Origin: Verrucomicrobiales bacterium
GTDB taxonomy: Bacteria; Verrucomicrobiota; Verrucomicrobiia; Limisphaerales; UBA1100
Assembly: GCA_005809105.1 (NCBI GenBank)
Contig: SYLI01000038.1
Coordinates: forward strand, 1 to 39,219
Direction of reading: 5' to 3'
DNA length: 39,219 nt
A program made the position numbers and the translations under genes. Numbering within the stretch: the first letter of the stretch is position 1; each line of letters begins with the position of its first letter. The notes beneath the pieces were generated by a model that was not told where the DNA came from, did no database searches, and saw only the letters and a list, made by a program, of their open reading frames with translations. Positions 1 through 22,611 of the stretch are shown in pieces.

Positions 1-3000
1 AGCCACGTGCGCAGCGTCTCCTCCACGCGCGCCAGGTTTTCCTCGCCGCCGCCGGCCATCAGATGGTTGCAGGCAAACTCCAAGAAGTCCGGCGGCAGGT
101 CCGTGCGGTGCTTGTCAAACAGCGCCGTGTTGGCGGTGAATTGTTCCATCGCCCGGTTGCGGTCGCCCAGCCGAAGGTAAAGGGTTGCCTGCAGCAATGG
201 GGCCATGGGGCTGGACTCATCAATCGTCAGCCCCACCGCACCCATCCGCGTGTGGGCGCGCAACACCGCCTTGCGCCCCTCCTCGGCGACCTCCTTGGGC
301 ACGTTGGAAATATGCACCAGCATGCCGCTCAGCAGGGTCGCGCTCTCGGTGAACCGTTTCTGCTCAAACCCCCGCTGCGCAAAGCTTCGAAGATTGTTCC
401 AACGCCCGTGGTCGTTGTGGGTCTGCCGCGTGGCGCGCGAAAGCCGCAGCAGCGTGGTCATCGGCGGCTCGGGCAGACCCGCCGTGGCATTGTGCGCGAG
501 CATCACCTCGCAGGCGGCATAGGCAGAGTAGTCGCGGCACTGCACATCCTGAATGGACGCGAGGACCTTCTGCTGCGAGGGCACATCGAGCTTCTTGTAC
601 TCCTTGTTGTTCAGGGTGTACGCGGCGTTCTGCGTGGTGAAGTCCCACCACAGGCCCGCCGTCTCGCGCCAGTCGGGATTGGCAAAGGGCACCTCGCGCT
701 GCTGCGATTCGATCCGCGCCAAGCCCTCGGCAAAGGCCGCGACATTGCCCTGCAGGCGCAGGACATCGGTGAGATCTTGTGCCGCCATGCGCGCGCGCAA
801 CTCGGGCCAGCGGTATTCGGCCAGTTCGCGCCACGGCGCGGGCACCGCGGGCGAATGGCGCAAATAGCGCTCGGCGCAGGTGCGCTCCACCGCATATTGC
901 CCCTCGGAGGGCGCCTCCACCACGCGCTTCCACCAGTCCAGCGCCTGGGTCTTGAGGTTGAGCTTCCAAAGCATGTCGCCGATGTAGTCGCTGTACACGG
1001 TGGAGATGCCGCCGCGGATCGCCCAGTCGTACACCTGCGCGGCCAGGGCCGCGTCCTGATTGATTTCAGCCGCCTGCATGAGGCTGCGGTGCAGCTCGTA
1101 GTCGCGCTTGGGCGGCAGCGCCATGAGCAGCAGCGCATGGGCCCTGGCCTCGGCCTTGGTCTTGTCGGCCATGGTGCCCGTCATGAGCCAGTAAACGCCC
1201 ATGTGTTCCTGCGGGAATCGCTGGTAAAAGCGGGTGGCCAGCGCGTGCGCGCGCACCGGGTCGGGCTTGGCGGTGCTATGAAGGAGCGTGTCGCGCTGCA
1301 CTTTCACCAGCGAGAGCAGCGTCTCGCGGCTGAGCTCATTAAACGCCCCCAGCGCCGTCTCCCGCAGGGGCAAGGCTGCGTTGGGCGCGGTGGTGTAATT
1401 GCCGTACCTGATGAGGGATTGAAAGAGCGGCGAGGCGTCCTGCCTGACGAGTTCGGCCGCAACCTGCTGCGCCTTGGGCCGGTGATCCTTGTTGGCGTTG
1501 GCCTCGGCCACCCAATTGGGCAGCAGGTTCAGGTGCGCTCCCGCGGTGAAGAGTTCCTGCCGCAGCCGCAGCAGCACCGCCGCATCCGCCGCGAACTGCG
1601 GCCCCATCGGCTGGCGCCACAGCAGATCATGTCCCAGCGTCTGCACCCGCGTGTCGTCGCCGCGAAATTCCAGCAGCGCCGCGCGGGCGTGGGCGAGCGA
1701 ATTGGCCTCGTTCTTGACCGCCAGCCAGACGCCACGACTCAACGCAAACCGGCACGCGAGCTTGTCCACGGGATTGGTGGACTGGTTGAGAGCCGCCGTG
1801 AGTGTCTGGTCTGCCTCGGCGGTGATTTGATTGAGCGCGTTCTGCGCCGTCGCCACGCCCTGCGTGGCCACCGCCACCTGCGCCTCTGCGGCCAGCCGCA
1901 CCTTGAGCGCCGCGTCCACCGCGTCCTGCGCCGCCTTCTTGGCGTTGGCATCCACCGTCTTGGCCAGCACCGCGCGCTTGTCCGTTTCATCCTTGCGCGC
2001 GGCCTCGGCTGCGGCCTGCGCCTGATCCAGCGTGGTCTGCGCGCTCTGCCGGTCGGCCATGGCCTTGGCCAAAATAAACTGGGCGTAAATATCGGCGACG
2101 TTGGCTTCGTTGGCTCCCATGACCAGCGCCGGCACCAGCACCCGCGCACCGCGAAGCGCGTCGCCTTCGCGATTGTAGGCATGGGCAAGGTAGTAAAGCT
2201 GAACGGCCCTATCGCGGCGCTGGGGATGACGCGCAAGGTAGGCTTGCACTTCGGGTTCAAGCTGCGCGGGCTTGATCCCCAGCGAGTACATGTAGGAAAT
2301 CTGCCTCGCGGCAAGGTCGGCGTCGTCGCCGAGCGCGCGCGCCAGCTTCAGGCTCTCCAGCGCGTTCGTGAACTGACCCTGGTGGGCAAAGTTTTCCGCC
2401 ACCTGCATCTGCAGTGTGCGCTGGACATGGCGGGTGAGGGGCAGCCCCTTCCTGAGCATTTTCTGCGCGAGGAGGTTCGCATCGCTCCACCGGCCCAGCG
2501 TCCGGTAGTCCGCAAAACCGCGCAGTCCGGCATGCAGGGTGAATTCTCCGGCAGGGAGCTTGTCGTGCATTTCCTCGGCGATCTGGGCGACACGGGTGCG
2601 CAGGCGCGGATTGCCGCTGTGGACGTAGAGTTCGCTGGCGCGCTGTCCGGCTTCACGTGTGGCAGGGCCGGGCCGGTTGGCCCACAGCGTGCGGAACGCG
2701 TCGGCGGCGTCCACATGCTTGTTGGCCGCCACGAGCAGATCGCCCAGCCGGTGGGCCAGCCCCTGCGCATCCGCGGAGTCGGGATAGCGGGTGAGGTACT
2801 GGCGGGCGTACACGGCAAAGTCTTCATGCCGGGCGGCCACCTCCAGCCCATCGAGCAACTTCAGCATCACCTCGCGATGCCGCGCATGATTGGGCTGGGC
2901 CTTGACGAAGCGCTCAGACACGCGCGTGAGGCCAAACACCCGCGCGTGGAGGTGGTAGAGGTCCACCAGTTCGAGCATGACGCGCGCACCTTCGGGCGAG

Positions 3001-3134
3001 GTGTCCAAGGCCTTGTTGAGCTGGCCTTCCAGCGTGGTCGCCTTCTGGTCAATGGGGTTTGCGGGCGCTTCGGCTGCGCCGAGGGAAACGGCCAGCGTCA
3101 GGGCGCCGTAAAGGAGGGCGGTTCGCAGGATCAT
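1..3134 (-). CDS. Large exported TPR/coiled-coil repeat protein (partial)
   Basis: The reading frame is open from an ATG at 3134 to the window edge (1044 codons), so the C-terminus is missing. The start MILRTALLYGALTLAVS is a Sec signal peptide ending near GAAEA, so the protein is exported. The body is helical and looks like degenerate TPR-type pairs, for example around QYLTRYPDSADAQGLAHRLG. Roughly residues 358-445 form an Ala/Lys/Asp-rich coiled coil of the same flavour as the inserts in the WD40 and PPC proteins of this window. It begins 20 bases after the stop of the upstream TPR gene with no clear Shine-Dalgarno, so the two are probably co-transcribed. No catalytic motif was seen. A scaffold role is inference only. 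The frame was checked at both ends and at two internal places; a long open frame on the opposite strand is its antisense shadow. Confidence 0.8.
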   Translation of the reverse strand, partial: MILRTALLYGALTLAVSLGAAEAPANPIDQKATTLEGQLNKALDTSPEGARVMLELVDLYHLHARVFGLTRVSERFVKAQPNHARHREVMLKLLDGLEVAARHEDFAVYARQYLTRYPDSADAQGLAHRLGDLLVAANKHVDAADAFRTLWANRPGPATREAGQRASELYVHSGNPRLRTRVAQIAEEMHDKLPAGEFTLHAGLRGFADYRTLGRWSDANLLAQKMLRKGLPLTRHVQRTLQMQVAENFAHQGQFTNALESLKLARALGDDADLAARQISYMYSLGIKPAQLEPEVQAYLARHPQRRDRAVQLYYLAHAYNREGDALRGARVLVPALVMGANEANVADIYAQFILAKAMADRQSAQTTLDQAQAAAEAARKDETDKRAVLAKTVDANAKKAAQDAVDAALKVRLAAEAQVAVATQGVATAQNALNQITAEADQTLTAALNQSTNPVDKLACRFALSRGVWLAVKNEANSLAHARAALLEFRGDDTRVQTLGHDLLWRQPMGPQFAADAAVLLRLRQELFTAGAHLNLLPNWVAEANANKDHRPKAQQVAAELVRQDASPLFQSLIRYGNYTTAPNAALPLRETALGAFNELSRETLLSLVKVQRDTLLHSTAKPDPVRAHALATRFYQRFPQEHMGVYWLMTGTMADKTKAEARAHALLLMALPPKRDYELHRSLMQAAEINQDAALAAQVYDWAIRGGISTVYSDYIGDMLWKLNLKTQALDWWKRVVEAPSEGQYAVERTCAERYLRHSPAVPAPWRELAEYRWPELRARMAAQDLTDVLRLQGNVAAFAEGLARIESQQREVPFANPDWRETAGLWWDFTTQNAAYTLNNKEYKKLDVPSQQKVLASIQDVQCRDYSAYAACEVMLAHNATAGLPEPPMTTLLRLSRATRQTHNDHGRWNNLRSFAQRGFEQKRFTESATLLSGMLVHISNVPKEVAEEGRKAVLRAHTRMGAVGLTIDESSPMAPLLQATLYLRLGDRNRAMEQFTANTALFDKHRTDLPPDFLEFACNHLMAGGGEENLARVEETLRTW

Positions 3135-3154
3135 GGCGGTGTGCGGGCGGGGGC

Positions 3155-5518
3155 TTAGGGAGTGGCCTTGGTCAGCGCCTGGCTGATGCGCTTGGCTTCA
3201 GCCGCCAACGGGCTTTCGGGAAATTCGTCGATCAGCTGATCGAACCGCCGCTTGGCGTCGCTCTTACGATCCATCCGGTAAAGGCAGCGGCCATAATTGA
3301 AGAGGATCACGTCCAGAAAGTTGGCGTCGGGGTGATCCGCCAGAACTTTCTCAAAGACGTCCACGGCGCGGGCAAAGTCCTGCTTCTGATAATAGAAGTT
3401 GGCCATCTTCGCCACGGCGTCACCCACGCGGCCGCTCTCGGGGAACTGGTCAAACACGGCCTTGTAGGCTTGGAACGCGCGCTCGAAGAGCGGCTCGCTA
3501 CTGGCCCGCGCGGCAGCCTTGGCCATCTCCTCGTAGCATTCGCCGATGCCATATTGGCCCTCGCCGCGCAGCTGGCTCTTGGTCAGGCTGGTCAGGTTGG
3601 AAAAGAGGGCGATGGCGCGGGGAAAGTCGCCCCGCTTCTGCGCCACGCGCGCCTGCTGCAGGATGGCCTCGTCCAGAAACCCGCTCTCGGGAAACTCGCG
3701 CTGCAACCGCAGGCTCATGGCAGCAGCCAGATCAAGCTGATCCATCGCAAAGTAAATGCGCCAAAGCTGCACGTAGGTTTCCTCGAGCATGGCACCGCCC
3801 AGTTTCCGGGCCTCGTCGGCGGCTTCTTCGCACACGGCTAGGGCTTCGCGGAATTTGCTCTGCGCCTTCTGCTCCAGTCCAAAATCCTTGTACTGCGCGC
3901 CGATGAAAGTGAGGGCACTGGCGGTCTTGAGCTTGGTCTTGAGTGCGAGCTGCTCGTCGGCAATCTCCGTCCGGGTGACGCGAACACCGCCCAAGTTGCC
4001 TTCCACGCACCGTGCCATAGTGGTGATTTCGCGCGGCTGCGGCGTGATGTTGCTCTGGTCCAGATACACGATGCGCACCCAGTCGCCCGGGCGCGATTCC
4101 AAGCGCGCATTGCCCGCCGTCACCGCCTCAGCCTGATCCAGAGGAACACTGGCGCGGAAAACGCCCGTGTGCAGCGAGGGATCCTCCGGCGTTGGCGCGA
4201 GGACGGGGGCGGGCAGGGTTGCGTTCCCCTCCTTCGTGGCGTTGGCGTCGGCGGGACGAATCACCCTTGTCTCGATTCGCGGCAGGCGCACCTCCGTGAA
4301 ACTCACCAGCACCGAGTCCACCACCTTGTAAGGATCCACTTCCGGCTCGGGCTCCTCAAGGCGAACGCCGGCGATGCCGGGCACGATGGGCGGCTTGCCG
4401 GGCGCCAGAGGCTTGGGATCCTGCGGCTTGTTCTTGCGCTCCAAGAGCAGCTTGTTGCGTTCGGTCTCGATTTCCTCGGCGGTTTTCTGGCGCAACACCT
4501 CCACGCGCGCCTGCAGGGTGTCGGCCCCATCGCCCACGTCGCGGTCGGCATCGCTCACCTGCAGGTTCACTTCCTTGCCCAGCACCACGCCCTGCAGTCC
4601 CTCGGAAAACGCGCCGTCCATCACTTGCACCAAGGCGTTTCCCACGACGGCAACCTGGCGCTGCCGGGCGGTGTTAAACTGGCGCGCGGCCGTGTGCGAG
4701 TCGGTGTAGCGCACAGTGACCTTGCTGGTGCCGGTGACTTCCAGAACGCCGTTGCCCTTTTGTGGCCGGCCCAGCCGGCTGGGAAGCGAGCCCAGCACGA
4801 CGCGGACATTGCGGCCCACGGGGACGCACGAGAGCTTCTCTTCGTCGCCTTCGGTGGTGGTGAGCGTGACCGGCACGGAATCGTCCTTCTCCAGGATGGC
4901 CAGATCGGCGTCCTCAATCTTCACGTAGAAGCGCTTGCCCGCCTCGAGCTTTTCCGCGTTCTGATCGCCCTGGCCCACGGCGGTTCCCACGCGCTCGAGC
5001 GATTCGATGGCCCGGCCGTAATGGCCTTGTTTGAAGTGGCCCAGCCCGATGTAGTAGTAGGCTTGGTTGACCTGGGTGGAAACAGGGAAGCGCTCGATGA
5101 CCCGGCGCATCATCTCAAAGCATTGGCCGTAATGCCGCGCCTCGTAAAAGCACACGCCCACCTGCAGCGTGGCCTCGGCCCGTTGCGAGTCGTCGCGGTT
5201 CTCCTCGCCGGCGGCGGCTTCGAAGTGCGCACGCGCCTTGTCGTAAGCCTGCTTTTTCTGCAGGTGATACGAGCCTAGCTTGAGGTGCGCCTCAAATCGC
5301 ACTTTGCTGCGAGGGTAGCGCTCAATGACCGACTGCCAGATTTCCGCCGCCTTCTCCAGTTCCGCGGCCTCGTAGCGCATGTCGCCGGCCAGAAGCAATT
5401 GTTTGGCGGCGCGATCCTCCAGCATCGACCCCTGTGTGGCCGCCGGGGCGGGTTCAGCAACTCCTGCGCGGGCTACGACCACACTAAAGACCAACGCAGC
5501 GACCAGGATTTTTATCAT
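3155..5518 (-). CDS. Exported TPR protein with central beta-sandwich segment
   Basis: This is a 787-residue protein. The ATG at 5518 was chosen because it gives the signal peptide MIKILVAALVFSVVVARAG directly; an upstream TTG in frame would add eight residues. Residues about 45-200 are TPR units (EIWQSVIERYPRSKVRFEAH, MRRVIERFPVSTQVNQAYYY) and residues about 533-787 are a second TPR block. Between them lies a beta-rich segment with the signature of repeated beta-sandwich domains in large secreted proteins: VSDADRDVGDGADTLQARV near residue 316, then HTGVF near 449 and a GDWVRIVYLDQSN edge strand. A Pro/Lys-rich linker splits this segment. TPR ends flanking a sandwich suggest an envelope scaffold, but no function can be assigned. 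It is probably transcribed from the promoter-like site in the 146-base spacer upstream and is followed by the second TPR gene. Confidence 0.85.
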   Translation of the reverse strand: MIKILVAALVFSVVVARAGVAEPAPAATQGSMLEDRAAKQLLLAGDMRYEAAELEKAAEIWQSVIERYPRSKVRFEAHLKLGSYHLQKKQAYDKARAHFEAAAGEENRDDSQRAEATLQVGVCFYEARHYGQCFEMMRRVIERFPVSTQVNQAYYYIGLGHFKQGHYGRAIESLERVGTAVGQGDQNAEKLEAGKRFYVKIEDADLAILEKDDSVPVTLTTTEGDEEKLSCVPVGRNVRVVLGSLPSRLGRPQKGNGVLEVTGTSKVTVRYTDSHTAARQFNTARQRQVAVVGNALVQVMDGAFSEGLQGVVLGKEVNLQVSDADRDVGDGADTLQARVEVLRQKTAEEIETERNKLLLERKNKPQDPKPLAPGKPPIVPGIAGVRLEEPEPEVDPYKVVDSVLVSFTEVRLPRIETRVIRPADANATKEGNATLPAPVLAPTPEDPSLHTGVFRASVPLDQAEAVTAGNARLESRPGDWVRIVYLDQSNITPQPREITTMARCVEGNLGGVRVTRTEIADEQLALKTKLKTASALTFIGAQYKDFGLEQKAQSKFREALAVCEEAADEARKLGGAMLEETYVQLWRIYFAMDQLDLAAAMSLRLQREFPESGFLDEAILQQARVAQKRGDFPRAIALFSNLTSLTKSQLRGEGQYGIGECYEEMAKAAARASSEPLFERAFQAYKAVFDQFPESGRVGDAVAKMANFYYQKQDFARAVDVFEKVLADHPDANFLDVILFNYGRCLYRMDRKSDAKRRFDQLIDEFPESPLAAEAKRISQALTKATP

Positions 5519-5572
5519 AGTGATTAACGCGCGTGAGCCCAAGGCCGCCGCACCATGGATGGAGTCGCCATC

Positions 5573-5600
5573 AGGATAGTGCGCCGCCCGCCTTTGGCAA
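5573..5600 (-). promoter_or_regulatory. Sigma70-like promoter for the TPR gene pair
   Basis: On the minus strand TTGCCA is followed after 16 bases by TATCCT. The first box matches the -35 consensus at five of six positions and the second matches the -10 at four of six. It lies in the spacer between the DUF1501 gene and the TPR gene and would give a leader of about 50 nucleotides. A second, weaker pair (TTGGGC, 17 bases, TATGAT) overlaps the start codon itself. This is prediction only. Confidence 0.4.
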
Positions 5601-5664
5601 TGTCCTTGTGCCCAGCCTGCACGCCCCGATGCGGCTCGCGTCGGTGGGCGCTGGGCCGCTGGAC

Positions 5665-6927
5665 TCAGGCGAAGAGTTCGCTCACCGGCTTGGCGCCATC
5701 AGCGACCAGTCGCATCGGCCGCTCCAGCGGCGTGTTGACCTCTTTCTTGTGGTCGATGCCCAGCGCGTGACACACCGTCGCATGGAGGTCTTCGGGCTTC
5801 ACAGGCCGCTCGGCCGGTTGCATTGCGTCCTGATCCGACTTGCCGATGACCTGCCCGCCCTTGATGCCGCCGCCCGCCATGAAGCAGCTAAAGCAGCTGG
5901 CGTGGTGGTCGCGCCCGGCTTGGGCGTTGATCACGGGAGTGCGGCCAAATTCGCTGAGCATGATCACCAGGGTCTTGGCCAACTTGCCGGATGCAGCCAG
6001 GTCCTCGATGAGCGAGGCCAGCGCCGGATCCATCGTCTCGCCGTGCGCTTCCATGGCCGGGAAGTTGTTGGTGTGCGTGTCAAACCCTCCGCGGTTGATC
6101 TGCACGAACCGCACGCCGGTTTCCACAAGACGCCGAGCCAGCAGCGCGCCGCGCCCAAACTCGGTGTCGCCGTAGCGCTCCAAGGTCTTCGGATCTTCCT
6201 TGTCCAGCTCGAACGCCTTGAGCGCCGGGCTGCGCATCAGATTCACGGCTTCCTGCGTCGCTGTTTGGACGGCCTGGTGATCGCCCGCACCGGGGCGCAC
6301 CCCTTGTTTTTGGTTCATGCGCGCCAGGATTTCCAGCCGCTTGTTGCCGCGCATCTGCGTGATGCCGGCTGGGAAGGCGAGGTACGGATCGCGCTCGCCG
6401 GGGCGGCCCACATAGTAGGCCTCGCAACGCTGGCCCAGATAGCCCGCGCGGTGCGACTGGCCGCTGATGGTGATGAATTGCGGAAGCTCTCCAAGCTTCT
6501 CCCGTTCGTGCACCACGACGGAGCCGATTCCCGGATGCAGCAGATTGGGGCTGGGATTATAGCTGGTCTGCAGCTGGTAGGTGGCGCGCCCGTGATCGCC
6601 GTTGTTGCCGTTGATGGAGCGAACCAGTGCGCAATGATGCATCTGCTTCGCCAGCTTGGGAAAGATGCTGCTGATCTGCACGCCATCCGCACTGGTCTTG
6701 ATGGCGTCCAATTCTCCCTGCACGGGCCGGCCCGGCTTGGGATCCCAAGTGTCCACATGGCTCATGCCACCGCCGTTCCAGAACAGGATCACATGCTCGG
6801 CCTTGGCCGGGCTTGCTGTGCCGGCGCGCGCCAGAACCTGCGCGATGGGCATGCCCAGCAGCGTGGCGCCCGTCATCGAGAGCATGCGCCGGCGGGTCAG
6901 TTGATAGTCGAAGCATCCAGTAGCCAT
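5665..6927 (-). CDS. DUF1501 family protein, Tat-exported
   Basis: This is a 420-residue DUF1501 protein. The start at 6927 is favoured by a GGAAGG ribosome-binding site just upstream and by the N-terminus LTRRRMLSMTGATLLG, a twin-arginine signal. The family hallmarks are present: WNGGGMSHVDTWDPKPG near the start, then SEFGRTPVINAQAGRDH with a following AGGG near the C-terminus, and the final EL tail. As I recall, Pfam places DUF1501 in the alkaline phosphatase-like clan, and the paired Asp/His of GRDH would suit metal binding. No substrate is established. It starts 46 bases after the DUF1549/DUF1553 gene, the usual pairing in planctomycetes and verrucomicrobia. It diverges from the tandem group at 25588-35031 in lacking the FLQIG-type signal. 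Confidence 0.92.
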   Translation of the reverse strand: MATGCFDYQLTRRRMLSMTGATLLGMPIAQVLARAGTASPAKAEHVILFWNGGGMSHVDTWDPKPGRPVQGELDAIKTSADGVQISSIFPKLAKQMHHCALVRSINGNNGDHGRATYQLQTSYNPSPNLLHPGIGSVVVHEREKLGELPQFITISGQSHRAGYLGQRCEAYYVGRPGERDPYLAFPAGITQMRGNKRLEILARMNQKQGVRPGAGDHQAVQTATQEAVNLMRSPALKAFELDKEDPKTLERYGDTEFGRGALLARRLVETGVRFVQINRGGFDTHTNNFPAMEAHGETMDPALASLIEDLAASGKLAKTLVIMLSEFGRTPVINAQAGRDHHASCFSCFMAGGGIKGGQVIGKSDQDAMQPAERPVKPEDLHATVCHALGIDHKKEVNTPLERPMRLVADGAKPVSELFA

Positions 6928-6973
6928 GATGGTTTTCCTTCCGTGTATTTGTGCTTGAGCGTTTGTGTCCGGG

Positions 6974-9067
6974 TTACGGCAGATAGCGAAATTCGTTGGA
7001 GTTGAGCAGCGCCCAGCGCAGGTCGGCCATTCCCTCAAAGGCGGCTTCGCCCTGGCCGACAATTTCGCGCGCGGCCGCCATCTCCTCGCCCTCAGGCTTG
7101 CGAGTCAGGATTTCCAGATACGCAAGCTCGATGGCCTTGTCGATCTGTGCCTTCGGGCCGCTCAGCAGCCGGTGCATCGGCTCCAGCGGGCCCACTCGCG
7201 CGGCTTCATGTGTGGCCTTGCCGTTGAGGATCATGAGCTGCTGGCGCATCGAGGGGGTGTGCTCGCGCAGTTCGCCCACGCTGTCGCGCGCAGGCTGGCC
7301 AAAGACGCGCAGAAAGTGCGCCGGCGGCGCAGGCGTGGCCATTTGCATGGTGCTGCCAAACCGGGGATTGTCGTCCACCTTGCGTTCCACCGTCATGGTC
7401 TTGTAGCGCATGCGCGGCGTCGGTTCCATGCGGGCCATTTCCTCCTGCTGCTTGGCCAGCTCCGCGTCGGTCAGCTTCTTCATCGCCTCGATGTCCTTCG
7501 CAAGCTCGGTCTTGAGAAGCTGGTTGAAGTCCAGGGAAATGGCCTGCTCCAGGTCGTAGCCCGTTCCGCTGGCCTTCATGGCCATCATGTTGGGGGCCAT
7601 GTTGGGCGTGCCGCCGGCCACGGTCTTGCCGCCCGCCTGGCCGATGGGAACCTGCACCGACTCTGTCAGTGTGCGCACGTTGGCGCCCGCGGGCCATTTC
7701 ACCTCGGTGAGATGGCCGGCAATGACGATGCTGTCATAGAGCACTTCGCTCAGCATGCGGCGCGGGCTCGCGCCGGTGAAGGCCGCGGCCGCTTCGCGCT
7801 GTTCCTTGGCGGTGGCCTGCGAGGCCACGGCCCCGCGCCCGTACGCCTCGGTGAGGACGATGGCCTTGATGGTGCTTCGCAGGTCAAAGTTGCTGGCGAT
7901 GAATTCGTCCGCCAGATGCTCCAGCGTCTTGGGGTGCGAGACGTTGTCGCCTTGAAAGTTGTCCACGGGCTCGTACAGGCCCCGGCCCATGAGCTCGGCC
8001 CAAAGGCGGTTTGCCATGTTCCGCGCGAAGTAGCGGTTGTTCGGGCTGGTCACGTGCTTGGCCAGCTCGGCCCGTTGCAGGCTCTGCCGGTAAAGGTCGC
8101 CTTCCACGTCCAGTGCGCGTGTGTCCTTCCGTGCTTCTCCAGCGACATCGAACCCGCCCGCCTTCGGGCCTTTGAAGGCCGCGCTGGTGTCCGCTTTGTC
8201 CAGCAGGCTGTCCAACGACGCGCCAGGGTCGGCCTTGGCCAAGGCGGCTTGTTGGGCGACCAGTTTCTTCGCCTGCATGCGCTTGATGTGATCGGGAGGG
8301 GTGTCGTACTGCTCAAGCTCGATGGGGAACTTGGGCGCCACGGCATTGCGCGAGGCCGGTTTCAGCCGTTCGGGCGGCCACAGCACGGTGGTCTCGGCGG
8401 CCTCGGTGGTATAAATCTGCTTGGAGAAGCGGTTCTCGATGCGGCGCGTCTTGCCGAAGTAGGTCGCCAGTTCGTAGAACTGCTTTTGCTTCCACGAATC
8501 AAAGGGATGATTGTGGCACTGGGCGCAGCCCATGCGCACGCCCAGAAACATCTGCGCGGTGGCGGCGGCCAGCGCCATCGGGTCGGCCTCCTCGCCCAGT
8601 ACAAAGCCGACAGCCGGAACCTTGCCGGTGGTGCCGTTGGCGGCGATCATTTCGCGCGCCAGCTCATCCCACGGGCGCCCCTGTTCAACGGCCGTGTGCA
8701 GATAGGCCAGAAGCGCATTGCCGCCGGTCGCCGCGCTGCGCACGCGCATCACGTCGGAGAGGAACACCGTCCAGCGGTCTGCGAAGCGCGGGTCCTTGAG
8801 CAGCTGATCCACCCATTGGGTGCGGCGCGTGGTGGCCGACCATTTCTGGTACGTCTCGATTTCCGCTGCGGTGGGGATGCGGCCAATGATGTCGACCGCC
8901 GCCCGGCGCAGAAACGCCAGGTCGTTCAAGGGTGCCCCCAACAGGGTTTTGCGATCCTTGTTATCCTGCGCCAGCAGCCCATCGGTCTGCGTGGGCGCGG
9001 CGGGAAGGGGGGTTGTGACAAGGTTGCCGGCGAGGGCCCCAAGGGTCAGAAGCAGCGCGCGTTTCAT
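6974..9067 (-). CDS. DUF1549/DUF1553 protein, short form without PSCyt1
   Basis: This is a 697-residue exported protein. The ATG at 9067 gives the signal MKRALLLTLGALAGNL. DUF1549 is recognised by LNDLAFLRRAAVDIIGRIPT and by the CAQCHNHPFDSW motif near residue 180, a CxxCH that could hold haem or metal. DUF1553 follows, with NRYFARNMANRLWAELMGRG and a C-terminal TRKPEGEEM segment. It lacks the N-terminal Big2 and PSCyt1 domains of the paralogue at 27003-29480. It also lacks the CECER cysteine pair of many DUF1553 proteins, reading VGELRE at that place. A central insert of about 100 residues (near PPDHIKRMQAKKLVAQQ) separates the two domains. The downstream DUF1501 gene is its expected partner. 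The biochemical role is unknown. Confidence 0.9.
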   Translation of the reverse strand: MKRALLLTLGALAGNLVTTPLPAAPTQTDGLLAQDNKDRKTLLGAPLNDLAFLRRAAVDIIGRIPTAAEIETYQKWSATTRRTQWVDQLLKDPRFADRWTVFLSDVMRVRSAATGGNALLAYLHTAVEQGRPWDELAREMIAANGTTGKVPAVGFVLGEEADPMALAAATAQMFLGVRMGCAQCHNHPFDSWKQKQFYELATYFGKTRRIENRFSKQIYTTEAAETTVLWPPERLKPASRNAVAPKFPIELEQYDTPPDHIKRMQAKKLVAQQAALAKADPGASLDSLLDKADTSAAFKGPKAGGFDVAGEARKDTRALDVEGDLYRQSLQRAELAKHVTSPNNRYFARNMANRLWAELMGRGLYEPVDNFQGDNVSHPKTLEHLADEFIASNFDLRSTIKAIVLTEAYGRGAVASQATAKEQREAAAAFTGASPRRMLSEVLYDSIVIAGHLTEVKWPAGANVRTLTESVQVPIGQAGGKTVAGGTPNMAPNMMAMKASGTGYDLEQAISLDFNQLLKTELAKDIEAMKKLTDAELAKQQEEMARMEPTPRMRYKTMTVERKVDDNPRFGSTMQMATPAPPAHFLRVFGQPARDSVGELREHTPSMRQQLMILNGKATHEAARVGPLEPMHRLLSGPKAQIDKAIELAYLEILTRKPEGEEMAAAREIVGQGEAAFEGMADLRWALLNSNEFRYLP

Positions 9068-9193
9068 TGGGCTTAACTCTAACACCGGCCGGACAATAAG
9101 GCCGGAAAACCAGGGTTCCGACGGGAGCACGTGGCCGCGTATTCACTGCCATCTGCTTCAGCCCCCCGATGGGCGTGCCCAAGCGGAGGGGTC
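9068..9193. other. Spacer with small inverted repeat upstream of DUF1549 gene
   Basis: This 126-base spacer lies between the tRNA 3' end and the DUF1549/DUF1553 start. It holds a six-base-pair inverted repeat (CCGGCC at 9085-9090 with GGCCGG at 9100-9105, nine-base loop) about 20 bases before the start codon. I see no convincing -35/-10 pair and no gene. Confidence 0.3.
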
Positions 9194-9270
9194 TGGCGCT
9201 CCCGGCCCGATTTGAACGGGCGACACGCGGTTTAGGAAACCGCTGCTCTATCCAACTGAGCTACGGGAGC
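9194..9270 (-). tRNA. tRNA-Arg (anticodon CCU)
   Basis: A full cloverleaf reads on the minus strand. The acceptor stem GCTCCCG pairs with CGGGAGC, the D arm is GCTC-AGTTGGATA-GAGC, the anticodon stem GCGGT/ACCGC encloses the loop TTCCTAA, and the T arm GCCCG-TTCAAAT-CGGGC is followed by discriminator G. The 3' CCA is encoded at 9194-9196. Anticodon CCU reads the AGG arginine codon. Its first base lies only six bases after the stop codon of the trypsin/PDZ gene at 9277, with no room for its own promoter, so it is probably processed from the longer transcript. Confidence 0.96.
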
Positions 9271-9276
9271 AGGGGA

Positions 9277-10281
9277 TTAGGGAAGGGCCGCCTTGGCGAT
9301 GGCCGCAGCCTTTTCGCCGAGCACGCGGCGCACGTCCTCCACCGGGATGGCGAAGAACTCCACCCGGTTGGACCGCGCGATGTTGATGCCCACCAGCCGG
9401 CCTTCCAAGTCGAGGAGCGGCCCCCCGATGTCGGTCGTGGTCATCGTGACATCATGCTGGATGATGCGCTCAAAGCCAGCCCGCCGCTTGGAAACCTCGC
9501 CGCTCATGCGCAGATTGCGCTCGAGCATCCCAAAGACCTCCGTGCGATAGCCCAGCGTGATTTCCACGTCCATCGGCTTGTCCTCGCGCTTGAGGGCCAG
9601 CTTCACCTTCTCGCCCGGATCATGCCGGTTGACCGATTCGATGAGCTTCTCGCGCGTGCGAACCGGCGTGCCGTCCACCGAAAGGATGATGTCGCCCTTC
9701 TTGAGTCCCGCCTTTTGCGCCGGGCCATCCTTGACCACCTGATCCACCGTGACGCCGCCGGTCTGGTTGCCGTCGGCCCCCAGCATGATGCCGATCACGC
9801 CGCCGGTCTTGGCGATGGGGCGCGGATAGGCGCTTACAATGCCCGCGCGGATGCCGGGACTCGCGTCCACGCCCGCCACCAGCCACTGGGCCATCGCCAG
9901 CTTGTCGCTGGCACCCCATTGCAATCCTGCGTCGTAATTGATGTCCGACTTGAGGATCGCCAGATCTGTCCGCGCATCATGCGCCACCAGCACCGCCCGG
10001 TGCAGTCGCCGGTCGCCGCCCGCCACACGGTACGGCTGCCGCGCGCCCTCCAGCTCGCTGTACTTGGTCACGATGATTCCGTTGGTGGACACCAGCGTGC
10101 CCAGACACAGCACCTTCACTCCGTCGAGCAGCGTGACCTTGCACTTGCTTGCCACTTTCTCCGCCTCGGCAAATGCCGCCACCACCTGCCGCCCGTCCGT
10201 CCGAAGATGCGGCGCCAGCGAAGCCGCCTGCATCCACGGCTGCGCCGCCCAAACCAGAATTGCCAACAAAAGCCCTCTCAT
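9277..10281 (-). CDS. Trypsin-fold pseudoprotease with PDZ domain inserted in the protease fold
   Basis: This is a 334-residue exported HtrA-like protein with signal MRGLLLAILVWAAQP. Strands of a trypsin fold are clear: TLVSTNGIIVTKYSEL, then HDARTDLAILK, then GIVSAYPRPI. The chain next enters a PDZ domain (about residues 155-245, including GPAQKAGLKKGDIILSVDG). Only afterwards does it return to the second protease half (IIQHDVTMTTTDIGGPL, then DLEGRLVGINIA and FFAIPVEDVRRVL). In ordinary HtrA proteins PDZ follows the complete protease domain. Aligned with the neighbouring protease, the catalytic His is Ser75 and the catalytic Ser is Ile285 (TDIGGPL instead of GDSGGPL); Asp106 remains. It should therefore be inactive as a serine protease and may act as a binding or regulatory partner. 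Its ATG overlaps the stop of the active protease by four bases, indicating translational coupling. Confidence 0.88.
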   Translation of the reverse strand: MRGLLLAILVWAAQPWMQAASLAPHLRTDGRQVVAAFAEAEKVASKCKVTLLDGVKVLCLGTLVSTNGIIVTKYSELEGARQPYRVAGGDRRLHRAVLVAHDARTDLAILKSDINYDAGLQWGASDKLAMAQWLVAGVDASPGIRAGIVSAYPRPIAKTGGVIGIMLGADGNQTGGVTVDQVVKDGPAQKAGLKKGDIILSVDGTPVRTREKLIESVNRHDPGEKVKLALKREDKPMDVEITLGYRTEVFGMLERNLRMSGEVSKRRAGFERIIQHDVTMTTTDIGGPLLDLEGRLVGINIARSNRVEFFAIPVEDVRRVLGEKAAAIAKAALP

Positions 10282-11357
10282 GGTTTTTCCTTGCTTGGCG
10301 GTTCTGGGAACTTCTTCTTCGGCCCCTTGCCCGGCCCGGGCGGCCCGGGTTCGTCGGGCTCCTCCTTCGGAAGATCTGACGCGGGCTTCTTCCCCAGCTT
10401 GATGGTGAGGGTCTGCGGCTTGCCTTCGCGCTCCACCCTCAACACCACCGTTTCGTCCGGCGCCATCTGGTTGAGGATGTGCCGCACGCTCTCGCCGCCA
10501 AAGATTTTCTTGTCGTTGATGTGCGTGATGACATCGCCCACCTTCGCGCCCGCCTTGGCCGCCGGCGAATCTTCCACCACGTGGTTCACCCGCGCGCCAG
10601 CCGGATGGTCGGCGGCAATCAATCCCAGATAGCCCCGTTTGCTTTCCTCGATGGGCTTGATCGATTTTCCATCCGCCAGTGCCTTCCAGTCGTCATGGAA
10701 GGAAATCATCGCCACGTGAAAGTTTTGGTCGGGCCGGCTGGAAATCCGGCTGTGGATGCCGATGACCGTGCCGTTGAGGTCAAAGAGAGGCCCACCTGAA
10801 TCACCGCCCAAAAGTTTGCAATCGGTGCGCAGCGTGTCGCGTGTGGTGCTGATGATGCGGCCCAGCCGGAACACGCTGCCGCGTTTCTCATCCCAGCCGC
10901 CGGGATTGCCCACGGCCAGCACCCAGTCGCCCGTCTCCGGCATACTGGGGGTGGCATAACCCACCGTCGGCAGATCCTTGGGCTTGGTGATGCGGATCAT
11001 GCCCGAATCGGTCGCGTCGGACTTGCCCAGCGCCTTGCCCTCGAACTTGCGCCCATCGGCCAGAATCACCTCGAACGTGCGCCCCGGGGTTCCCGACACG
11101 TGGCCGGCCGTCAGCACCAGTCCGTCATCGGAGATGATGACCCCGCTGCCCGATCCGCCGCCGGCGCGCACCGCCACGGTTGCTGCGCGCACCTTGGTCA
11201 GCACTTTTGACACCTGCTGCTGGATTTGCAGCAGGTCCGCCTTGTTTTCCGGCGCCTTCTTGTCCCATGCCGCCGGCGCACCGGCAGCCCACGCCATCGG
11301 CACCAAAAGTGCCGCCCCGAGGCACAGCCTCAGGCACGATGCAGTTCTCAACACCAT
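10278..11357 (-). CDS. S1C-type serine protease with C-terminal PDZ domain
   Basis: This is a 359-residue exported protease with Sec signal MVLRTASCLRLCLGAALLV. The trypsin-like domain has a complete candidate triad: His86 in LTAGHV, Asp117 in DATDSG and Ser187 in GGDSGGPL. A PDZ domain follows at about 240-322 (EDSPAAKAGAKVGDVITHIN). The tail is rich in Pro, Lys and Glu (about 325-359) and ends SKEKP. HtrA-family proteins degrade or guard misfolded envelope proteins; that role is inferred here. The stop overlaps the start of the pseudoprotease gene by four bases, so the two are probably made together and may form mixed assemblies. The gene lies 48 bases after the GYF_2 membrane protein. Confidence 0.93.
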   Translation of the reverse strand: MVLRTASCLRLCLGAALLVPMAWAAGAPAAWDKKAPENKADLLQIQQQVSKVLTKVRAATVAVRAGGGSGSGVIISDDGLVLTAGHVSGTPGRTFEVILADGRKFEGKALGKSDATDSGMIRITKPKDLPTVGYATPSMPETGDWVLAVGNPGGWDEKRGSVFRLGRIISTTRDTLRTDCKLLGGDSGGPLFDLNGTVIGIHSRISSRPDQNFHVAMISFHDDWKALADGKSIKPIEESKRGYLGLIAADHPAGARVNHVVEDSPAAKAGAKVGDVITHINDKKIFGGESVRHILNQMAPDETVVLRVEREGKPQTLTIKLGKKPASDLPKEEPDEPGPPGPGKGPKKKFPEPPSKEKP

Positions 11358-11405: not shown

Positions 11406-12650
11406 CTAGCGTGAAGCCGGGCCATCCTGCGCGTCGGAACGCCCCGCGAGAAGATCGGTTGCCGCCCAAACCAGCAGCAGGGCGCCCCCGCCGTGCCAGA
11501 GCAGCGCCTTGAGCGTCAGGCCCGCCTGAGCGGCCGCCAGTCCGGCCTGACGCAGCCACCCTTTTCCAAAGTCGCCGACGGGCGAGTGCAGCCGCGTCCA
11601 TTCCGCCAGTAGAAGCACCGCCACCAACGCCCCGCCAGCCGTGAGCAGCCGCTGCGCGTGTCCGCAGAGATTTGCGATGCCGTCGGTGGATCGCCCGTCG
11701 CTGGCCAGCGCAAGAGTGCCCGCCGCGCCCACGCTTGCGATGATGGCCGCCAGTCCCGCGAGTCCAATCAGGGTGGACTTTTGAAACAGGGCGAGCGTGC
11801 GCACGAGCAGCACGCCGCCCGATTCCTCAGGCCCCAAGGGCAGCAGCCAAGCCATCAACACCAGCGCGCCACCGGCGCAGCCCGTCCAGTACGCGGCGCG
11901 GCTGTTGGGCCGATAGCGGCGAAGCTGTGACGCCACGAGCATCGCCGGCGCACCCACTGCCAGCAGCACTCCCGACGCCGGCTGCAAAAAGAGCGCCGTG
12001 CAAACTTGCTCGAGCCATTGCGGCAGCCAAGCCTGCGTGGGCGGGGTGCTGGCCGCGGCAGCCACGCTGGTCGCCCAAAGCAAAAGGCCGCAACCCAGTC
12101 CCGCCACGCCGCGCCAGGGCGCACGCAGCGCGCCGCCCAGAAGCAGCAGTGCCGCCCCCATGGCGATGGGGAAAATGAGTTGCGCCATCCCCCAAGTGGC
12201 GAGCCCTGAAAATTGAAGGTTGGGAAACGCCAGTCGGGCGTTGCCAGTGTACACGGGCAGGAGGCCGCCCAGAAGCAGTGCGAGCGCCAGCCGAGTGAGC
12301 GTGGACTTGCGGCGCGCTTCCTCCACCATGGGGTCAACCTGCGGCCGGTGCCGGCGCTCGCGGCTGACCACCCGCGGATCGTAGCCGCAATGAGCGCAAG
12401 CGCCGCCCGATTGCGGCCCCAGCGGCGCATCACATTGTGGACACCGTGGCTCTCGCGCCCCGCTGGGGGCGGGCGGATGCAGCGGCGTGCCGCCCTCGGA
12501 AAGCACCTGCGCGAGTGTGGCCCATTCAGCCAGCCCTTCGCGCCAGGCTGGGTCTTGGGGTTTGAGTCGGCCTGAATCCACCAGCTCCTGCACCTGGGCA
12601 GGTGAGTACGGGCCATAGGTCTGCCCCTTGATGCGGACGTGGATTTCCAT
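11406..12650 (-). CDS. GYF_2 domain / zinc-ribbon multi-pass membrane protein
   Basis: This is a 414-residue protein. The first 55 residues are a GYF_2 domain (KGQTYGPYSPAQVQELV and DPAWREGLAEWATL), a small module thought to bind proline-rich peptides. A four-cysteine zinc ribbon follows (CPQCDAPLGPQSGGACAHCG) at about residues 70-90, then a basic linker. From about residue 115 there are roughly eight hydrophobic helices, so the N-terminal module should be cytoplasmic. It lies 21 bases after the esterase gene and 48 bases before the active protease, within a compact same-strand run. The proline-rich tail of that protease is a conceivable GYF target, but the two would sit on opposite sides of the membrane, so I do not press this. 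Function unknown. Confidence 0.85.
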   Translation of the reverse strand: MEIHVRIKGQTYGPYSPAQVQELVDSGRLKPQDPAWREGLAEWATLAQVLSEGGTPLHPPAPSGAREPRCPQCDAPLGPQSGGACAHCGYDPRVVSRERRHRPQVDPMVEEARRKSTLTRLALALLLGGLLPVYTGNARLAFPNLQFSGLATWGMAQLIFPIAMGAALLLLGGALRAPWRGVAGLGCGLLLWATSVAAAASTPPTQAWLPQWLEQVCTALFLQPASGVLLAVGAPAMLVASQLRRYRPNSRAAYWTGCAGGALVLMAWLLPLGPEESGGVLLVRTLALFQKSTLIGLAGLAAIIASVGAAGTLALASDGRSTDGIANLCGHAQRLLTAGGALVAVLLLAEWTRLHSPVGDFGKGWLRQAGLAAAQAGLTLKALLWHGGGALLLVWAATDLLAGRSDAQDGPASR

Positions 12651-18681: not shown

Positions 18682-21600
18682 CTACTTTTTCTCTGGAGCC
18701 TTCGGTTCTTCCGGCGGCTTCGGCGGATCGAAGGCCGCCACGACACTCGCGTTGGCCAGCGTCCAGACTCGAAGCGTGCTGTCCTGCCCTCCTGCCACGA
18801 CCAGCTGCGCATCGGGCGTGGTGGCGCAGGCGTACATGTAGTCGGTGCCACCGGCAAGGCTTCGCACGTCGCCCAAGCTGGACGCATTGATCACCCTGAC
18901 GGTCTTGTCTCCCGACGCCACGACGGCCTGATCGGTGAAGCCCACGTAGGAGATGGCGGAGACCTCCTTGCCGAAATTGACGCGCTGGGCGCCGCGTTCG
19001 CCGGTTTCAAAGTTCCAATGCCTCACGCTCTTGTCGGCGCCAGTGCTGACGAGCTGGCGGCCATGCGGATGCCACGCCACGCCCATCGCATGATGCGTGT
19101 GGCCCTCGAAGGTGCGCACCACCTTGCCGGTAGACAGGTCGGTGACCTTGACGAACTTGTCGGCGCTGGCCGAGGCCACGTGCCTGCCGTCGCGCGAGAA
19201 GGCCAGCCCCAGCACCGAGTCGCTGTGCACGTCCGCCAGATCCTTCTGCAACTTGCCATCGGCCACCGTCCAGATCTTGATTTCGCCGCCGCGGCTGGGC
19301 TCTCCGCTGCCCGAGGCCACGAACTGCCCATCGACGCTAAAATCAATCGCGTTCACGCGATCGGAAATCGGGGAATTTGCGTCGCCCGATCCCAGCGTGC
19401 GCTCCAGTTTCCATTCGGATGCGAGCGACCATTCCCGCGCCACCTTGTCGGCCCCCACCGACAGCAGTTTCCCGCCGACGGTGAGCGCCAGGGCCTTCAC
19501 GGCCCCCGTGTGCCCCGCGTAGGTCGCCAAGGGCTGGCCATCCTGCACGGCCCACGCCTGGATGGAATGGTCGTCGCCCCCGGTGAGGAGCATCTGGCCA
19601 TCGGCTGAGAACGCCACCGAGCGCATCGGCTTCTCGGCCTTGGTGGCGGCCTCCTTGGCGGCGGTCGCCGCGGCGTCGGCTTGCTTCTGCGAATTGTCGG
19701 CTCCTGTCTTGTCGGTCTCGGCCTTCTTCAAGGCTTCATCGACCAGCCCCTTGGCCTTGGTGGCCAGGTTAAACTCGTTGACGGCTTCCTGCCTCGGGTC
19801 ATCGAGCTTTTTGAACTCGGTTTCCGCCGTGGTGATGTTGCGCATGATCTCGGCGAGCTTGGTGGTGGCCGCCGTCTGATCGGCATTAAGCTTGGTCTGC
19901 ATCGCCTTGATGTCATCGGCCACCTTGCGCTTTCCAAGGGCGAGCTTTTCCGCGTCGGCCTGAACCGTCTTGGCCTTGGTGGCCAGAAGGGTTGCGGCGT
20001 CCGCAGCCTTGGTGGCATCGGCAGATGCTTTCTCGGCCGCTTGATATGCCGTCGTGGCCGTGGCGACCTGCGTCTTGGCTGTGGCCAGCGCCGTCTCCGC
20101 GGTTTTAACATTGGCTTGCGCCTGCGTCAGTTTCTGCCCGGCCGTGGTGGCGGCCGTCCCTGCCGTGGTCTCGGCCGCCTTGGTCTTGTCGGCCTCGGCC
20201 TTGGCCGTGTTGGCCAGCGCGCGCTTGGCGGCGGCATCCTTGTTGGCGGCGTCCTTTTCCTCAGGCTTCTTGGCCGCATCCCCTGCAATTTTCTTGGCCA
20301 ATTCCTCGGCGTCCTTCGCCACCTTGTCCGCTGCCGCAAACGCGGTCTGCGCTTTCGTGTTCCCAGCCTTGGCGTCGGCCAGCGCCTTGTCGGCGTCCTT
20401 CGCAACCTTGTCGGCGTCGGCCAACGCCTTCTGATCGGCGACCAGTTTGGTCTCGGCAGGCTTGAGCTGGGTGTTGGTGAAGGTCTCGACTTGTTTCATG
20501 GCGGCGGCTGCGGCCGTCTTCTTGGCCGTGGCGTCGGCGCCTTTGGTCGTGGCGTCTGCCACGGGCGCGACGGCATCCGCCTTGGCCTTTGCGGCGGCGG
20601 CTTCGTCGTCCTTGGCGGCTTTGTCGGCCGCTTCAAACGCCTTGCCCGCGCTCTCGATGTCGGTCTTGAATTTGGCCAGTGCGTCTTCGGTCGTCTTCTT
20701 GTCCGCGAGGGCCTTGTCAAGCAGGGCCTTCTTTTCGGCGATGGGCTGGCTCTCGGCCTTCTTCTTGGCCTCGTCGCCCTTCTTGATGCGCTCGTCCGCC
20801 TGTTTCTGCGCGTCCTGCTTGGCTTTGACATTCCCCACATGGTAGGCCACCTCGGCCTTGGCGAAGGTGGCAAGCCGGTCCTTGTGCATCTGGTCGAGCT
20901 TGGGCTCGCGCAGGCCGCGCACCTCGGAAATCTGCGCGCCGCTCGTGGCGTTCCAAACACGGGCGATGTTGTTCTCGCCGGCGGAGGCAAATTTCTGGCC
21001 ATCGGGACTGACGGCGATGGCGGCCACCGGACCGCCATGGGTGATGGACCGGATGCTGGTGCCCGCCGCGGCATCCCAGTGGCGCGCGCTGCCATCCTTG
21101 CTGCCGGAAAGAACCTGGGTCGGCACGCCGGGAATCCGCGAGAGCCCGGTGATGGCACCGGTGTGGCCCTTGAGTTCCTTGAGCGGCTTGAGCCCGAGCA
21201 GTTGAGCGGCCTTTTCGGCGTCGCGCGACTTCGTGAGTTCGGTCTGGGCCGTTGCCGCGGCCGTCTTGGCGTCCGCAGCGGCCTTGTCGGCCGCCACCAA
21301 ATCCGCCTTGGCCTTGGTATCCGCGACCTTGGCGGCGGCGTCGGTGTTGGCTGCCGCGAGGGCTGCGGCGGCCTTCACTGCGGCCGTCTTGGCCGTGAGG
21401 GCCAGCGCAGCCGTGTCTTTGCCAGCCTTGTCGGCCACATCAAATGCCTTCTGCCGGTCAGCAGCGGCCTTGGTTGCATCGGCAACCGCCTTGGCCGCCG
21501 TTTCATTGATGGTGAGGGCCCCTGCCATGTCCCATGCGCGAATCACATTATCCTCATGCGCCGTGACGAGCAGCGTGCCGCTCGTGGTCCAAGTGGCGGC

Positions 21601-22611
21601 GGTGATGCGCGAGGGTTTTTCCAATTCCAGCTTGGGGGCGACAAACTTGCCGTCCGCCAGCGTCCAGATGTGGTAGGCGCCATCGGCGGCGCCAGAAAGC
21701 AGCCGCGTGCTGTCGGGCGCGAACGCCACGGATTGCACGAGCGCCTTGTGGCCCGAGAGGGTCTTGGAGGCGGCACCGGTCGCGTAGTCCAAAATCTTGA
21801 TGTCGTTGCCTTCGGCGGCGGCAATCCATTTGCCGTCGGGGCTCACGTCCACAATGGCGGCGTCGGAATTGATGGGCAGCGCCCGCAGGGGCTTGGCCTG
21901 CTGCCGGCGCCAGAGTTTCACCTCGCGGAAGCCGCCGCTGGCCAAGAGCGTGCCGTCTTCGCTGAAGTCCAGCGCGTGCACCATGTCCAAGTGCGCCACG
22001 CCTTGCTTGTACAGACCCTTCTTGAGCAGGGCATCGTCGGTGAGACGCGCCGCCACTGTTTTGGTGGGCAGATGGTAGATGAAGATTTGGTTGGCACGCC
22101 CGGCCGCCGCGTACTGCCCGTCGGCGGTCACCGCCACGGAGTAGATGGGATTGAGGCCCGCCGGCAACGGCTGCCATTCGATGTCGCGCGCCAGACGCAC
22201 CTCGCCCTTGGCGCCCTGTTCAATCCACAGTTTGATGAGGCCCAACTCCTGCGGAGTGAGCGAGCGCGCCGAGACCTTGTTGTCCAAAGGCGGCATCACA
22301 GGATCGTCGGCATGGCTGGCGGCCTTGAACACGGTGCTCTTGGCTGCGTCGCCCGGCACGACCGCCTTGGCTGCCACGATGTCCTTGGGCGATTCCAGAA
22401 TGAGATCGCCCTTGGCCTTGGTGCGGTTGTGACAGGCCAGACAGTTGTTGCGAAAGATGGGGAGGATTTCGTTTTGGAAATCCACCGGCGTCGTGCGAGA
22501 GACCGGCGCCACCGGCAGGGGCTTGGGCGCGCCAAAGAGCGTCGCACTGCAGCCTGCCAGAAGGGCGGCACACACCGCGCCGCGCGTGAGGGAAGTATTC
22601 TTGCGTTTCAT
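18682..22611 (-). CDS. Giant WD40 lipoprotein with cytochrome-type motif and coiled-coil inserts
   Basis: This is a 1309-residue protein. The signal ends in LLAGC, a lipobox with Cys21, so lipid anchoring is likely. A PSCyt1-type segment follows, with NNCLACHN (Cys57, Cys60, His61) and a downstream MPP, suggesting bound haem. WD40 blades run from about 155 to 370 (SGHKALVQSVAFAPDSTRLL). An Ala/Lys/Asp-rich helical insert of about 100 residues (370-473) follows, then two blades (476-566). A second helical insert spans about 425 residues (567-990), and the last blades cover 991-1295 (TGGDDHSIQAWAVQDG). The protein ends in a Pro/Glu/Lys tail. PSCyt1 joined to WD40 is known in PVC bacteria; the size of the inserts is unusual. 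It lies 47 bases after the PPC gene. Inserts placed between blades would project from the propeller. Function unknown. Confidence 0.9.
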   Translation of the reverse strand: MKRKNTSLTRGAVCAALLAGCSATLFGAPKPLPVAPVSRTTPVDFQNEILPIFRNNCLACHNRTKAKGDLILESPKDIVAAKAVVPGDAAKSTVFKAASHADDPVMPPLDNKVSARSLTPQELGLIKLWIEQGAKGEVRLARDIEWQPLPAGLNPIYSVAVTADGQYAAAGRANQIFIYHLPTKTVAARLTDDALLKKGLYKQGVAHLDMVHALDFSEDGTLLASGGFREVKLWRRQQAKPLRALPINSDAAIVDVSPDGKWIAAAEGNDIKILDYATGAASKTLSGHKALVQSVAFAPDSTRLLSGAADGAYHIWTLADGKFVAPKLELEKPSRITAATWTTSGTLLVTAHEDNVIRAWDMAGALTINETAAKAVADATKAAADRQKAFDVADKAGKDTAALALTAKTAAVKAAAALAAANTDAAAKVADTKAKADLVAADKAAADAKTAAATAQTELTKSRDAEKAAQLLGLKPLKELKGHTGAITGLSRIPGVPTQVLSGSKDGSARHWDAAAGTSIRSITHGGPVAAIAVSPDGQKFASAGENNIARVWNATSGAQISEVRGLREPKLDQMHKDRLATFAKAEVAYHVGNVKAKQDAQKQADERIKKGDEAKKKAESQPIAEKKALLDKALADKKTTEDALAKFKTDIESAGKAFEAADKAAKDDEAAAAKAKADAVAPVADATTKGADATAKKTAAAAAMKQVETFTNTQLKPAETKLVADQKALADADKVAKDADKALADAKAGNTKAQTAFAAADKVAKDAEELAKKIAGDAAKKPEEKDAANKDAAAKRALANTAKAEADKTKAAETTAGTAATTAGQKLTQAQANVKTAETALATAKTQVATATTAYQAAEKASADATKAADAATLLATKAKTVQADAEKLALGKRKVADDIKAMQTKLNADQTAATTKLAEIMRNITTAETEFKKLDDPRQEAVNEFNLATKAKGLVDEALKKAETDKTGADNSQKQADAAATAAKEAATKAEKPMRSVAFSADGQMLLTGGDDHSIQAWAVQDGQPLATYAGHTGAVKALALTVGGKLLSVGADKVAREWSLASEWKLERTLGSGDANSPISDRVNAIDFSVDGQFVASGSGEPSRGGEIKIWTVADGKLQKDLADVHSDSVLGLAFSRDGRHVASASADKFVKVTDLSTGKVVRTFEGHTHHAMGVAWHPHGRQLVSTGADKSVRHWNFETGERGAQRVNFGKEVSAISYVGFTDQAVVASGDKTVRVINASSLGDVRSLAGGTDYMYACATTPDAQLVVAGGQDSTLRVWTLANASVVAAFDPPKPPEEPKAPEKK

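Follow-up and report, generated by a model that had tools for sequence, protein, structure and literature searches.

The window, that is, the whole 39,219-nucleotide stretch of DNA analysed here, contains an open reading frame on the reverse strand (gene B, 9277-10281; 334 aa, ATG start, stop codon at 9277-9279) which raises the question of what a PDZ domain does in the middle of a trypsin-like protein that has lost its catalytic residues. A sequence-only reading had described the product as a conserved, non-catalytic binding module in which a PDZ domain sits inside the trypsin fold and could, on binding a ligand, directly move the dead active site. The protein is 82% identical to its counterpart in a same-genus relative and about 50% identical to that in another relative.

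Domain order of the gene B product

Pfam searches with B gave Trypsin_2 at residues 61-154 and PDZ_2 at residues 162-243 (E 1.4e-19); a weak match to the viral family Peptidase_C107 (E 0.013) was taken as chance. In comparison with solved HtrA structures, B residues 59-156 matched protease residues 98-197 of 22kg_A, residues 271-317 matched residues 203-254, the stretch around the catalytic serine, and residues 173-243 matched residues 291-361, which is the PDZ domain following the protease in that chain. The matched HtrA chains thus read N-half, C-half, PDZ, whereas B reads protease N-half, PDZ, protease C-half. The same permuted order was obtained with the family profile of B against HtrA chains of known structure (E 6e-51). 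Sub-profiles for the N-half, the PDZ and the C-half, run over all fetched loci, yielded 73 distinct B proteins, mostly from one Verrucomicrobiota class (74 aligned rows, as the query is present twice). The PDZ lies between the two halves in all 73 and outside the barrel in none. The proposed order is therefore borne out by the structure matches, the profile and the homologues alike, and the sequences support a conserved, apparently non-catalytic module with its PDZ nested between the two halves of one trypsin fold. The coordinates of these regions and of the residues discussed below are collected in Table 1.

Structure prediction was informative for the PDZ. An AlphaFold model from B and two relatives had a mean pLDDT of 44, while a model from an 8-row alignment resolved the PDZ alone (pLDDT 72-91; barrel pLDDT 25-60). 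Compared with solved structures, the predicted PDZ gave a Z of about 15 to the PDZ domains of HtrA proteins, a value that covers the PDZ alone. As neither model resolved the barrel, it is by homology that the two halves of B would be expected to close into one barrel.

Table 1. Features of genes A and B, with positions in the window.
Feature	Position	Strand	Basis
B residues 1-20, hydrophobic N-terminus, probable signal peptide	10222..10281	-	read from sequence
B residues 45-157, protease N-half to strand GIVSA and L3 Arg154	9811..10149	-	structure-chain and profile matches
B residues 158-244, PDZ inserted at loop L3	9550..9810	-	PDZ_2 match, predicted structure
B residues 245-264, conserved linker F..xRNxxMSGxxSxRR, PDZ to C-half	9490..9549	-	alignments
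B residues 265-325, protease C-half QHD...GGPLLDLEGRLVGINIA...FAIP	9307..9489	-	structure-chain and profile matches
B S75, at catalytic His position	10057..10059	-	alignment
B D106, at catalytic Asp position, kept	9964..9966	-	alignment
B I285, at catalytic Ser position	9427..9429	-	alignment
B R154, equivalent of DegS Arg178 in L3	9820..9822	-	alignment
B Q275, equivalent of DegS Gln191	9457..9459	-	alignment
Gene A, HtrA-like partner, 359 aa, conventional protease-PDZ order	10278..11357	-	Trypsin_2, PDZ_2; conserved adjacency
A Ser187 in GGDSGGPL	10797..10799	-	conserved in all A partners
A His86	11100-11102	-	conserved in all A partners
A Asp117	11007-11009	-	conserved in all A partners
A residues 166-186, strand glycine to Ser187, L3 mostly deleted	10800..10862	-	length comparison
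A residues 240-322, C-terminal PDZ of A	10392..10640	-	PDZ_2; sub-profile

Loss of the catalytic residues, distribution and origin

The residue numbers first proposed for the replaced catalytic His (Ser75) and Ser (Ile285) were right by alignment. The catalytic His is present in 0/74 B rows: 71 rows have Ser there and the others E or A. The residue at position 285 is M (31 rows), C (16), V (9), I (8), A (4), Q or T (2 each), or L or S (1 each), and the single row with Ser lacks the His. What is conserved is thus the loss of the serine (73/74 rows); the change to Ile, also suspected of being conserved, is not, since the residue varies. A sub-clade including L054, L055, L056, L057, L058, L045, L047 and others has QCGGP or LCGGP at the Ser position and no His; for lack of the His, a cysteine protease was rejected, and the Cys might have a redox or disulfide role.

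Of 384 sampled genomes of the class, about 75 have, among the matches listed, a collinear full-length B; genus g50, with its small genomes, is among them. Beyond the class, a phylum-wide profile search gained a single family, f95 (G440, G542). No match covering >80% of the query was found in plasmids, and homologues sought in viral contigs were protease-only and PDZ-only proteins. Some loci depart from the common form: a B-type protein at L061:3021-4484 (-) has two tandem PDZ domains inside the fold, B of L018 has an internal stop, and a 935-aa open frame (G210:C20:3459-3677) matches the end of the B profile only (positions 260-332).

In a tree built from only the barrel parts, a branch with SH-aLRT 99 sets all 54 B rows apart; 51/51 A rows are likewise set apart by a branch, and B forms a split together with two DegP-type rows (SH-aLRT 91). 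By the splits that hold the B rows, the PDZ insertion looks to have had a single origin, and it probably arose in a canonical HtrA.

The PDZ stands in place of loop L3

In an alignment with DegQ, the first half of B runs to DegQ residue 164 (GIVSALGR), and the match picks up again with the second half at about 168-170, ahead of the catalytic residue at 187. The insertion site is therefore loop L3, and by alignment the PDZ of B stands in place of that loop. The register of two residues known from DegS was set by their distance from the strand glycine and from the catalytic residue, which in DegS is S201; the DegQ alignment yielded the same register (R154 = Arg178, Q275 = Gln191). In DegS, L3 (176-189) is shifted when the PDZ binds its ligand (PMC11642142). 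Arg178 then touches the LD' loop of the adjacent subunit as part of a cluster to which Thr167 and Gln191 also belong (PMC11642142). R154 is kept in 99% and Q275 in 96% of the B rows, although the triad is gone; their conservation could instead serve fold stability. By eye, no conserved residue of B aligned with DegS Thr167. Gly164 in the carboxylate loop of the PDZ is present in 74/74 rows.

A catalytic partner encoded directly upstream

Gene A lies directly upstream of gene B and overlaps it by 4 nt. The His-Asp-Ser triad is kept in every A partner. The distance from the strand glycine to the Ser is 20-22 residues in 71/72 A proteins (21 in the query's A), as against 31-33 residues in two DegP-type proteins of the same bacterial group, and most of L3 has therefore been lost in A. 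Most A proteins of genus g50, whose genomes measure 2.2-3.5 Mb, and those of L052 and L053 have no PDZ of their own, and B keeps its PDZ there. Because most A proteins do have their own PDZ, B is not the only possible sensor of the pair.

The two genes are closely associated. Sixty-four of the 73 B domains are encoded directly downstream of an A gene on the same strand and 7/73 share a single polypeptide with A (in the order A-B in six and B-A in one), leaving two with no A visible. Alongside B, the best A matches reach E 1e-73 to 1e-123 (1e-60 in the divergent G440). Genomes where no B was found have no close A either, the best A matches falling to generic HtrA levels; within g50 these are only 1e-6 to 1e-14. 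Pairwise identities of A and B correlate over 70 loci (r = 0.92), as expected for a pair inherited together; such a correlation also follows from shared descent alone. Taken together, the complementary loss of catalytic residues in B and of L3 in A, the linkage, the fusions in both orders and the lack of a close A where B is missing suggest that the two proteins work as one machine. That the genes are linked and co-occur shows that they share a pathway, which is compatible with either direction of regulation.

At L049, a B-type protein (2169-3839) and an A-B fusion (3848-5977) stand in tandem on the forward strand, both divergent. In the window, a GYF_2-domain protein is encoded just upstream of gene A (11406-12650, reverse strand); a GYF-domain gene is found beside A-B only in the same genus and was therefore not counted in the system. 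On the other side, a tRNA-Arg (anticodon CCT; 9194-9270), on the reverse strand like gene B, begins 6 nt past the gene B stop codon, and the same tRNA-Arg (anticodon CCT) follows B in the relative L001. Further genes in the window encode a 1309-aa protein that consists largely of WD40 repeats (18682-22611, reverse strand), DUF1501 proteins (5665-7062 and 25588-26994) and a DUF1549/DUF1553 protein (6974-9130).

Possible division of labour between A and B

We give roughly even chances to a reading in which A and B make up a two-subunit, signal-controlled envelope protease, with B as a non-catalytic sensor subunit that controls A. In such a complex, A would be the catalytic subunit, with its intact triad and mostly deleted L3, and B a dead HtrA-fold subunit with its L3 replaced by the PDZ. 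A peptide, probably the exposed C-terminus of a misfolded protein, would bind the PDZ of B and move the L3 stem that carries R154; R154 and Q275 might then act on the neighbouring A subunit, so that the active site of A would be switched on by B, or held off by it as long as no ligand is bound. This presumes that A and B associate physically, and their hydrophobic N-termini suggest that both are exported. A split-function HtrA machine, with catalysis in the L3-poor A, sensing in the dead B and the ligand acting between subunits, is possible, if slightly on the doubtful side. Of the earlier idea that the PDZ moves the dead active site, the nesting of the PDZ in the fold has held up, but the target has shifted: given an insertion at the PDZ-sensing L3 and a live partner poor in L3, the signal would more likely be directed at the active site of A.

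The same observations can be read in other ways. B might be a substrate-delivery adaptor or chaperone, whose PDZ would pick up unfolded or tagged proteins and pass them on to A with no allostery, L3 being merely a permissive place for an insertion. PDZ domains of HtrA proteases do bind substrates, B has the pair's only PDZ in lineages with a PDZ-less A, and the tandem PDZ domains of L061 fit binding capacity. As this would leave both the loss of L3 in A and the retention of R154 and Q275 in B unexplained, we consider it unlikely. We find it rather improbable that B is instead an inhibitor or assembly partner, keeping A inactive in a mixed oligomer or setting the oligomer size while its PDZ anchors the complex to a membrane or client: live subunits are often diluted or restrained by dead ones, and translational coupling and 1:1 fusions fit a fixed stoichiometry, but a PDZ placed in L3 suggests dependence on a signal.

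Two further readings would separate B from A or from the HtrA fold. If A were a mere neighbour, B could have an unrelated binding role (e.g. metal or ligand) or, in the Cys sub-clade, cryptic catalysis. In MamO, a repurposed trypsin fold serves to bind metal (PMC4794232), and Cys stands at position 285 in 16/74 B rows; however, the fusions and the fact that A is missing along with B suggest a function in common and the sub-clade has no His, which makes this very unlikely. Finally, the C-terminal residues of B could form a separate domain, the order then being due to chance resemblance or an assembly artefact. The structure models, with their poorly predicted barrel, would allow this, but the match of residues 271-317 to the half of HtrA with the catalytic Ser keeps the same spacing, which speaks strongly against a separate domain after the PDZ, and the order is common to 73 homologues from many independent genomes. 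With that shared order and one apparent origin, an artefact or frameshift fusion was rejected too, and we regard this last reading as scarcely credible.

Comparison with known systems

B is related by sequence to the DegP/DegQ/DegS trypsin-2 type fold, as seen from the profile match (E 6e-51) and the split with DegP-type rows (SH-aLRT 91). Like DegS, DegP and DegQ (MEROPS S1C) it has a trypsin-fold core, an HtrA-type PDZ and the register of the L3 Arg and the Gln; unlike them it has lost the catalytic His and Ser, and its PDZ is at L3 and not after the protease. Of the HtrA features tested, B has neither a PDZ C-terminal to the protease nor the His-Asp-Ser triad. Because of these two differences B falls, as far as its sequence tells, outside the catalytic HtrA family and is better described as an HtrA-derived pseudoprotease with a catalytic partner. 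It also scores below the NCBIfam cut-offs for Do/DegS (best TIGR02037, 125.1 bits against 416.2).

A functional parallel is the magnetosome HtrA pair of MamO and MamE, in which MamO, a dead HtrA homologue, activates the live MamE without catalysis (PMC4794232). B has a degenerate triad and a linked gene for a live HtrA partner that might depend on it, and a MamO-like action of B on its partner would be the best reading by analogy. The build is different: for MamO a TauE-like transporter domain and metal binding are reported and no nested PDZ is described, whereas B has its partner encoded in the adjoining gene or in the same polypeptide, belongs to a different phylum and reaches only 20.9 bits against 800 with the MamO model NF040961. 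Plant Deg5, an HtrA protease without PDZ, resembles the A proteins of g50 (PMC3640471), but Deg5 and Deg8 both have catalytic triads and the PDZ of Deg8 is C-terminal, unlike B. In SpoIVB (peptidase S55), a trypsin-like double barrel is closely entwined with a PDZ, as is expected for B; what is called a 'PDZ domain insertion' there is, however, a PDZ that precedes the protease, with one strand going into the core (PMC12502668). With the SpoIVB model TIGR02860, B gave 34.8 bits against a cut-off of 305, for the PDZ part only, and the order differs. In CtpB/Tsp (S41) a PDZ gates the protease active site, but the protease fold is unrelated to that of B and catalytically active.

A PDZ survey of 1,474 microbial genomes distinguished 12 families, with the order N-PDZ-C in none (PMC6411480). 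In the open-access literature we found no description of a nested-PDZ pseudoprotease or of the A-B pair, which agrees with the initial impression that no family with this arrangement had been described. The architecture is real, widespread and apparently undescribed. How HtrA active sites are switched by PDZ binding via L3 and LD is understood from homotrimers, in which one and the same chain both senses and cuts. Here the two functions appear to be split into two co-encoded proteins, with the PDZ put directly into L3, and between-subunit signalling would therefore be separable from signalling within a subunit. If true, this would be a form of regulation new to trypsin-fold proteases, and a naturally occurring insertion of a domain into an allosteric loop.
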